Virus record (IMG/VR): IMGVR_UViG_3300035698_004484
Span: 1 to 38,876 of that record
DNA length: 38,876 nt
Direction: 5' to 3' (one strand)
Source: a virus
Shown: one piece after another, positions 33,965-36,191 of the stretch
Layout: every line of letters starts with the position of its first letter
How positions within the stretch are numbered: the stretch's first letter is position 1
Notes under the pieces: model-generated
The model's input: only the letters and a program-made list of their open reading frames with translations
Database searches by the model: none
What the model was told of the DNA's origin: nothing
Made by a program: the position numbers and the translations under genes

Positions 33965-36191
33965 AAAATATCAACAGGACTGTAGTGATAATGTAATGAA
34001 TGATCTTAGTAAGGGTTTAAAGCTTATTGGAGTAGTGAATCCTACTGGATGCATACTAGGAGATACTATTATTAATTTTAATCGAGCCAAGAAAGGATTT
34101 AGCCTTGGTATAGAGGAAGCTTATAAAAGATTTCATAATGAGTGTCCAGGAAATGAGAAATGGGATAGAGATATTCCTACTTATGTTAGATCGTTATCTG
34201 GAGATTCAATACAACTCCATAAAATAATTAATATAGTATATAGTGGCTTTAAACCAACATATAAATTATTATTGAAAAATGGAAAATCTATTGTTGCTAC
34301 GCCAGAACATAAAATAATGACAAAAAGAGGATTTATTTCATTAATTGACTTAGAGTATACCGATGAGATTATGTGTGACACTTTAAAACCTAAAAAAAGC
34401 GAGTATAGAAAAAGCAAACCTAGAGACAGCTATATAAATGTTTCTAAAAATCATCCTTATGCTGTAAAAGTTAATTCAACCAGGGACGGAGTATATTATA
34501 GAATACCTGTACATAGGTATATCTACGAAGAATTTCATAACAGATACGTAAATCCAGTAATTTATCATATACATCACTTAGATGGAAATCATTACAACAA
34601 TGAGATTGGTAATTTATGCTTACTGAAAATAGAAGATCATATGAAATTGCATGGTAATCATAAAAACTTTAATCAAGGAGTTCCTAAGTACAGTAAATAT
34701 CATTGTATTTATAAGTATAAAGTAGCGCATACTTATGATATTCAATGTGAAGATCCTCATCATAATTTTGTAGCTAATGGTATAGTCATACATAATTCGG
34801 GAAAAACAGAATCATTTATAGATATTACTAGACGATACTTAGAGTTAAATCCTACTAAGAACGTATTAGTATTATCTACATTAAGTATATTGACATCTCA
34901 GACTTATAATAGGTTTAAAACTAGAATGCCTAATTTATCAGTAGGAGTATTACAAGGTCAAAATTATCCTATGAGCGATAGTAGAATAGTAATAGCTACT
35001 GTTCAATCCGCTAAAGAAGCTAAGAAAATGGTTAGATGGTTATATGAAGATGAAGGAAGAGTAGGTTTAATTATAGGAGATGAAATACATAATCTATTAG
35101 ACACAGAAATGTTTAAGGAGGCAGTACAACAACATAAAGCTCAGATAATAGGATTTACTGCTACTCCATTTAGAGAAGGTAAATTGATTACAGACCTATT
35201 TGATAATATTAGCCATACTATATCCATGCAAGAGTTAATAGATGCCAAGAGATTAGTACCTATGAAGCTTATACAAACAGCAATGAATGAAGCCGACTCT
35301 GAGTCTAGAGTAGCTAAAATGGTAGCTATGTATAAAGAGTTTGAATTAGGTAAGAAAGCAGTAGTATTCTTTAGAACAATGGAAGAGGCTAGGTTAGCTA
35401 GGAATGCTTTTGAAATGGAAGGTATAAAATCTGAAGCTATACTAGGAGATATTAAAGGAAGACATAGAGATAAGCTATTAAAGCAGTTTAATGAGGGTGA
35501 TTTGAACGTTTTAACCACCTGTAATGTACTATCTGCGGGGTTTGATAGCCATAAATTAGAGGTAATAATGATGCCTTATGGCACTAAATCACCTACTTTA
35601 TTCATGCAAAGAGCTGGTAGAGGAGCTAGACCTCAAGACGGAGATAGCGTTAAACCAGAACATAGTAAACAAGACTGTAGAATATACATGGTAGGCACAG
35701 CTCCTACTATACAAAAAGGTACTTATCAGAAGTTAATAAAGTATGTTCTAAATGAGGGAGCTGGAATTAAAGTAGAACTAGATATATTTGATGAACTGGA
35801 AATTATGGAAGCTTTAGATGAACCTAAAATGAGTCACAAGTATACCTGGACTGAGAAATTATGTATAGTAGCAGATAGGCTTGAGAAATTAGGATGTGCT
35901 AATCTATATGAAATGATAAGAAGAAAGAAGTTTCCTGCTAGATACCTAAAGAACCCACAACTATTATTAGATAGCTTAGAAGCAGGTATGTATGATTCTG
36001 AGTCTGGTATGATAGCAGCAGTTAAGAAAAAATGTGTAGTTAAAGATCCTTGGATTGTGCCTAGCGGTAAACATGTAGGTAAGCACATATCCGAATTATC
36101 TTATTATTATAAGAAGTTTGTTACTGAGAAATACCCTACTTCTGGGATAGCTCAGATTATATTGAAATGGGAAGGTTTACAAAGGAGGTAG
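33954..36191 (+). CDS. SF2 (DEAD/DEAH) helicase interrupted by an intein
   Basis: The 745-residue precursor starts at the ATG 33954 (MELRKYQQDC) with GGAG before it, overlapping the RNA ligase by 11 nt. Joining residues 30-32 (PTG) to 282 onward (SGKTES) restores Walker A NPTGSGKT. Further helicase motifs are GDEIHN (~375), GFTATPFREG (~400), a RecA2 domain, SAGFDS and QRAGRGARP (~550). This order is that of UvsW/Ski2-like or restriction-type translocases used for replication start, fork repair or DNA unwinding. The spliced protein would be 496 residues. The C-terminal ~150 residues are not recognised. Confidence 0.93.
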   Translation: MELRKYQQDCSDNVMNDLSKGLKLIGVVNPTGCILGDTIINFNRAKKGFSLGIEEAYKRFHNECPGNEKWDRDIPTYVRSLSGDSIQLHKIINIVYSGFKPTYKLLLKNGKSIVATPEHKIMTKRGFISLIDLEYTDEIMCDTLKPKKSEYRKSKPRDSYINVSKNHPYAVKVNSTRDGVYYRIPVHRYIYEEFHNRYVNPVIYHIHHLDGNHYNNEIGNLCLLKIEDHMKLHGNHKNFNQGVPKYSKYHCIYKYKVAHTYDIQCEDPHHNFVANGIVIHNSGKTESFIDITRRYLELNPTKNVLVLSTLSILTSQTYNRFKTRMPNLSVGVLQGQNYPMSDSRIVIATVQSAKEAKKMVRWLYEDEGRVGLIIGDEIHNLLDTEMFKEAVQQHKAQIIGFTATPFREGKLITDLFDNISHTISMQELIDAKRLVPMKLIQTAMNEADSESRVAKMVAMYKEFELGKKAVVFFRTMEEARLARNAFEMEGIKSEAILGDIKGRHRDKLLKQFNEGDLNVLTTCNVLSAGFDSHKLEVIMMPYGTKSPTLFMQRAGRGARPQDGDSVKPEHSKQDCRIYMVGTAPTIQKGTYQKLIKYVLNEGAGIKVELDIFDELEIMEALDEPKMSHKYTWTEKLCIVADRLEKLGCANLYEMIRRKKFPARYLKNPQLLLDSLEAGMYDSESGMIAAVKKKCVVKDPWIVPSGKHVGKHISELSYYYKKFVTEKYPTSGIAQIILKWEGLQRR
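34050..34796 (+). mobile_element. Intein with embedded HNH endonuclease in the helicase P-loop
   Basis: The 249-residue insert begins with Cys1 and block A CILGDTIINF, has block B IVATPEHKIMT (ThrxxHis as TPEH), and ends with block F TYDIQCEDPHHNFVA and block G NGIVIHN followed by Ser+1 of the extein. The centre (~residues 203-236 of the precursor) reads YHIHHLDGNHYNNEIGNLCL, then LLKIEDHMKLHGNH, an HNH homing endonuclease rather than LAGLIDADG. Catalytic Cys1, His in block B, the His-Asn end and +1 Ser are all intact, so self-splicing and homing are both plausible. Confidence 0.95.

Follow-up and report, generated by a model that had tools for sequence, protein, structure and literature searches.

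What separates the two halves of the ATP-binding loop in a helicase of an uncultivated phage, and is such an interruption unusual at this spot? The window, which is the whole stretch of 38,876 nucleotides analysed here (IMG/VR record IMGVR_UViG_3300035698_004484), encodes on its plus strand a precursor of 745 aa (33954-36191, +). Its product is an SF2 (ResIII/DEAD-type) helicase (Pfam ResIII, 73.4 bits; Helicase_C, 53.0 bits) and is assigned to the DNA helicase family phrog_16 (3e-55). The start is best placed at the ATG at 33954, with GGAGAAGAAG just before it, and this agrees with the start of the homologue in phage contig L006. The first 11 bases of the helicase ORF are shared with the end of its upstream neighbour, an RNA ligase gene (33053-33964, +; phrog_548, 2.6e-34).

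Anatomy of the interrupted helicase

The N-extein (33954-34049, +) has 32 aa and ends in NPTG, the first half of Walker A. The C-extein (34797-36188, +) has 464 aa, starts with SGKT and contains the helicase motifs GDEIH, TATP and QRAGRGARP. Between the two lies an intein of 249 aa (34050-34796, +; precursor residues 33-281), whose 249 codons are in frame and free of stops; profile models, predicted structure and Foldseek matches all identify it. Removal of the intein in silico gave a helicase of 496 aa, and the same size had been computed in an earlier sequence-only reading. This product has a continuous Walker A (NPTGSGKT), followed by ResIII and Helicase_C, both above their cut-offs; with GDEIH as motif II and QRAGRGARP, it has the features of an SF2 helicase.

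The intein begins in block A (CILGDT) with Cys1 (34050-34052, +), a residue invariant across the set of 59 inteins described below. Block B, T-P-E-H, occupies residues 84-87 (34299-34310, +); in the same set T84 is at least 90% conserved and H87 is invariant. The C-terminal splicing region with blocks F and G (TYDIQCEDPHHNFVANGIVIHN; 34728-34796, +) is recognised by TIGR01443, and D230, H248 and N249 are conserved. The codons of His248-Asn249 are at 34791-34796, and the intein ends in DPHHNFVANGIVIHN, followed by Ser. This +1 Ser (34797-34799, +), the acceptor nucleophile, is the Ser of TGSGKT.

We compared the intein with profile models. NCBIfam TIGR01445 matched residues 1-91 (30.7 bits, cut-off 24.5), TIGR01443 matched residues 227-249 (23.5 bits, cut-off 15.6), and Pfam Intein_splicing scored 38.0 bits (cut-off 35.8). 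Because TIGR01445 and TIGR01443 both match the ends above cut-off, the boundaries are not set by eye alone. A chance origin is excluded by the two independent intein-end models together with an intein-free homologue. The sequence-only reading had described a complete HNH intein splitting Walker A at 34050-34796, and these coordinates are exact, both NCBIfam models setting the ends at the same places. It had placed the insertion between a "second Gly" and Ser; the Gly|Ser position before SGKT is right, but NPTG has a single Gly.

The HNH_3 endonuclease core (HHLDGNHYNNEIGNL...EDH) covers residues 154-198 (34509-34643, +; PF13392, 27.3 bits, cut-off 24.8). The conserved H/N/H motif is present (HHLDGNHYNNEIGNLCLLKIEDH), and its positions are kept in related inteins. 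About 20-25 residues just before the core, present in the inteins of L048 and L049, are missing here. With 58 related inteins as the alignment, AlphaFold modelled the intein at a mean pLDDT of 93.8, and the HNH region was modelled confidently too (block means 96-98, residues 131-190). The top Foldseek matches of this model were the Ssp and Npu DnaB inteins and the Mtu RecA intein (best E 2.5e-8, TM by target 0.77-0.86). On this prediction we are confident that the intein has the Hint fold. Cys1 with block A, block B, His-Asn with +1 Ser, the Hint fold and an insert-free homologue together mark it as a class-1 cis-splicing intein.

Base composition was considered as a sign of recent arrival. 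The G+C content is 0.29 in the intein and 0.34 in the extein, slightly lower in the intein, and this does not set the intein apart. An Rfam scan of the window detected no group I intron or other RNA element.

Intein-free helicases and relatives of the intein

The sequence-only reading had made its case depend on an intein-free homologue with a continuous P-loop, and such a homologue exists. The helicase encoded by the phage contig L006 shows 48-49% identity along its entire length, opens with the same MxLRxYQQD as the window helicase and has an unbroken P-loop (STGSGKT). Synteny also relates the two loci: the neighbour gene at 37176-38657 (-), whose product starts with MPFDPNQPF, has a homologue downstream of the L006 helicase. 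The intein had no match in the whole 47.8-kb L006 record, in which a search with the helicase finds its target. Among 37 helicase relatives found by alignment-based search, L006 included, none had an intein at the P-loop site; the P-loop was continuous by pattern in 35 and by reading in L012 (PMGSGKT), and the match in L013 is too short for an intein. A scan of genome contigs with the helicase as query returned no relative. The intein allele of the window is known from one sequence only.

A single-sequence search of viral contigs for close relatives of the intein gave, among the matches inspected (L002, L003, L005), only HNH genes outside inteins. In annotated phages the inteins found were distant relatives, among them one in a ribonucleotide reductase that shows an HNH motif (L010) and the HNH inteins of ThyX, from mycobacteriophage and others (Cane17, vir335, Rctr197k). 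In the latter, as in the window, a Hint domain in a phage enzyme is interrupted by HNH. They differ in their low identity (23-30%) and in the target gene, and two of three carry PF01844 HNH rather than HNH_3.

Many closer inteins were found in viral contigs at the window's own P-loop position, which we write as G|[SCT]GK. In uncultivated phage contigs (L124, L082, L109, L067, L157, L296 and others) they combine Hint with HNH_3, and the closest are about 40-46% identical to the window intein. Like the window intein, they sit mostly in SF2 helicases. They differ in that most have about 20-25 extra residues before the HNH core, and in that the host helicases are not close orthologues. Across all same-site inteins, we take the hosts to be XPB-like, DinG/XPD-like, SNF2-like, RecA-like, MoxR/AAA-like and ResIII-type proteins; ten exteins were Pfam-scanned, and the other names come from motifs and recall.

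The nearest inteins, those of L124, L082 and L109, align along their full length at 43-45% identity (E 5e-62 to 1e-73) and sit at the same site in ResIII-type helicases. Their exteins matched the window extein at E = 0.38, 5e-10 and 1.6, respectively. In a quick tree, many branches of which are weak, 15 rows of P-loop inteins, the window intein included, formed a clade with SH-aLRT 98, and L124 stood beside the window intein at 90. The closest kin of the window intein thus sit in helicases barely related to its host helicase, while the close relatives of that helicase all lack it. We read this distribution as horizontal spread of an HNH_3 intein lineage from P-loop to P-loop, with repeated loss as the less favoured alternative.

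Endonuclease type at two P-loop sites

Following a review (PMC7765530), LAGLIDADG is the commonest endonuclease type in inteins overall, and the sequence-only reading was right in this general expectation. Its view that HNH is unusual at this site was not borne out, since phage contigs carry HNH_3 at this position of the P-loop more often than any other endonuclease. With a C-terminal junction pattern we obtained 57 usable inteins, to which P0002 and L048 were added. HNH_3 was found in 43 of the 59 and LAGLIDADG_3 in 1 of 59, but this HNH share is biased because the pattern, which prefers endings like NGIVVHN, misses the endings NGFVNHN and NGIVSHN that are common in LAGLIDADG inteins.

We therefore repeated the test at each of the two P-loop sites, this time anchoring the pattern on the intein N-terminus. 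The anchor PTG|C.xGDT was found in 18 contigs with 11 complete inteins, 9 of which had an HNH motif by pattern; when the window was added, Pfam HNH_3 was present in 7/12 and LAGLIDADG in none. The anchor GxGK|C.xGDT gave 23 usable inteins, with LAGLIDADG_3 in 20 and HNH_3 in none, while many further hits were not delimitable. The LAGLIDADG counts (0/11 vs 20/23) differ with a Fisher p of about 1e-6, a value inflated by sequence kinship and drawn from patterns whose breadth differs between the sites. In viral contigs, P-loop inteins at G|[SCT]GK mostly carry HNH_3, whereas those at GK|T, three residues off, mostly carry LAGLIDADG.

A tentative explanation, which we rate slightly below an even chance, is that a little-described HNH_3 lineage is specialised on G|[SCT]GK and has moved repeatedly from one phage NTPase to another that is not its orthologue, since its endonuclease recognises Walker A codons, with a separate LAGLIDADG lineage at GK|T. 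If this is true, endonuclease type would be partitioned by insertion sites only three residues apart. In the DNA profile built from 58 insertions, the strong positions are all bases that also determine P-loop residues, and DNA recognition therefore cannot be told apart from protein constraint. In a literature search of partial coverage, we found no paper treating the G|[SCT]GK HNH_3 inteins as a group.

Inteins at exactly this spot are common in environmental phages, and the window intein is a fresh example rather than the first; by itself it contributes a further well-supported HNH intein of a P-loop, in an uncultivated phage and with a homologue whose site is empty. More weight lies with the general pattern, in which two populations of inteins seem to occupy phage P-loops, one of HNH_3 inteins common to unrelated NTPases and one of LAGLIDADG inteins. 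If this pattern holds in a full survey, the arrival of inteins in new genes would become testable, with conserved P-loop codons as the common target. The G|[SCT]GK inteins are also candidate splicing tools with a TG|SGK junction.

The host of the first recognised HNH inteins is reportedly cyanobacterial GyrB. PMC5050341 credits this recognition to Dalgaard et al. 1997; those inteins likewise carry HNH rather than LAGLIDADG, in another host protein and at another insertion site. The inteins of mycobacterial DnaB (DnaBi1), P. horikoshii RadA and mycobacteriophage TerL also lie in an ATPase Walker A (PMC6195587, PMC5050341). However, the TerL1-a intein is inserted between Lys and Thr, and the window intein between Gly and Ser. 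DnaBi1 is a class-3 mini-intein whose +1 residue is described as Mg-binding, whereas the window intein is of class 1 with HNH_3, and its +1 residue is the Ser of GSGKT.

Several matches in the surveys were irregular. Many matches to GxGK|C.xGDT (within L182-L261; e.g., L185, L189, L190, L191, L193, L202) lie in ORFs that end 33-59 residues past the pattern. Atypically split inteins whose N-part is very short would look like this, and so would frameshifts; the single contig L190 contains two of these sites. In Lactobacillus phage CL2 (L011, 445-2562), the annotated terminase ends in the N-terminal half of an intein (CLTGDT...). It is followed by an ORF for an HNH endonuclease, in which no C-terminal half of an intein is visible. 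The two annotated genes may together be one HNH intein that has degraded or been frameshifted. The P-loop inteins of L054 (120-617) and L056 (2501-3043) retain HNH remnants only and are apparently decaying towards mini-inteins. A ThyX gene in L059 (1241-3718) apparently has two inteins, LAGLIDADG-like upstream and then HNH, with about 30 extein residues between them.

Proposed mechanism and alternatives

We consider it very probable that the element, placed between Gly and Ser of Walker A in a phage SF2 helicase, is a canonical class-1 intein that splices in cis and homes by means of its embedded HNH_3 endonuclease, and that it belongs to a lineage common to many phage NTPases at the same position. 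For the window intein, we infer splicing, DNA cutting, homing and horizontal spread. The 745-aa precursor would be translated first. Cys1, block B and His248-Asn249 would then excise the 249-aa intein, and NPTG would be joined to SGKT via the +1 Ser to form the 496-aa helicase. The HNH_3 domain of the freed intein would cut the uninterrupted P-loop DNA of other phages infecting the same cell, and the intein would be copied into that DNA during repair. Homing is plausible from the intact HNH motif, the scattered distribution and the presence of intein relatives in non-orthologous genes.

Because the intein sits inside the P-loop, ATP binding would be lost before splicing. Helicase activity should thus depend on splicing, as had been expected from the same position. 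An inactive precursor might serve as a post-translational switch, in which slow or conditional splicing gates helicase activity during infection. There are precedents among P-loop inteins (PMC6195587, PMC5790916): a mycobacterial DnaB P-loop mini-intein responds to oxidation, and the P-loop intein of P. horikoshii RadA disrupts, or blocks, ATPase function (as cited in PMC6195587). However, all 37 of the 37 helicase relatives lack the intein, which is therefore not a conserved regulator of this helicase. Its patchy occurrence and its HNH domain are what a selfish element would show, and no regulatory feature was identified in the sequence. In principle any intein of this type could splice conditionally. 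The switch, which the sequence-only reading had put forward, has no support here, though it is not refuted, and we regard it as quite improbable.

It is also conceivable, though unlikely, that the intein still splices while its HNH domain is dead or declining, and that the intein is now inherited vertically. Much of the HNH domain has been lost in the relatives in L054 and L056, several P-loop inteins of 134-164 aa are mini-inteins, and the window intein lacks the residues found before the HNH core in L048 and L049. Against this, the HH...N...NL...H motif is intact and above the Pfam cut-off, and AlphaFold is confident in this region. Phage methylases are reported to contain HNH-encoding insertions that belong to neither inteins nor introns (PMC11855218), and a ShiLan-like in-frame insertion that does not splice and is tolerated as a loop could be imagined here. 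The ShiLan HNH is in another reading frame, whereas that of the window is in frame, and the window element has the full set of intein motifs, the predicted Hint fold and the +1 Ser. An unspliced insert in the P-loop would also be expected to destroy ATP binding. We rejected this explanation as scarcely credible, and the splicing and homing intein is the reading that we prefer.

Two other P-loops in the window are uninterrupted and lack TG|SGK: GFPKTGKT in a Sak4-like P-loop ATPase (29195-30004, +) and AANQIGKS in the terminase large subunit (11462-13060, -). A single ORF at 15695-16825 (-) matches recombination endonuclease VII over residues 113-191 and a HAD domain of acid-phosphatase type over residues 177-338, and it looks like a fusion of nuclease and phosphatase. 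The phage that carries this apparent fusion also carries the RNA ligase that precedes the helicase.
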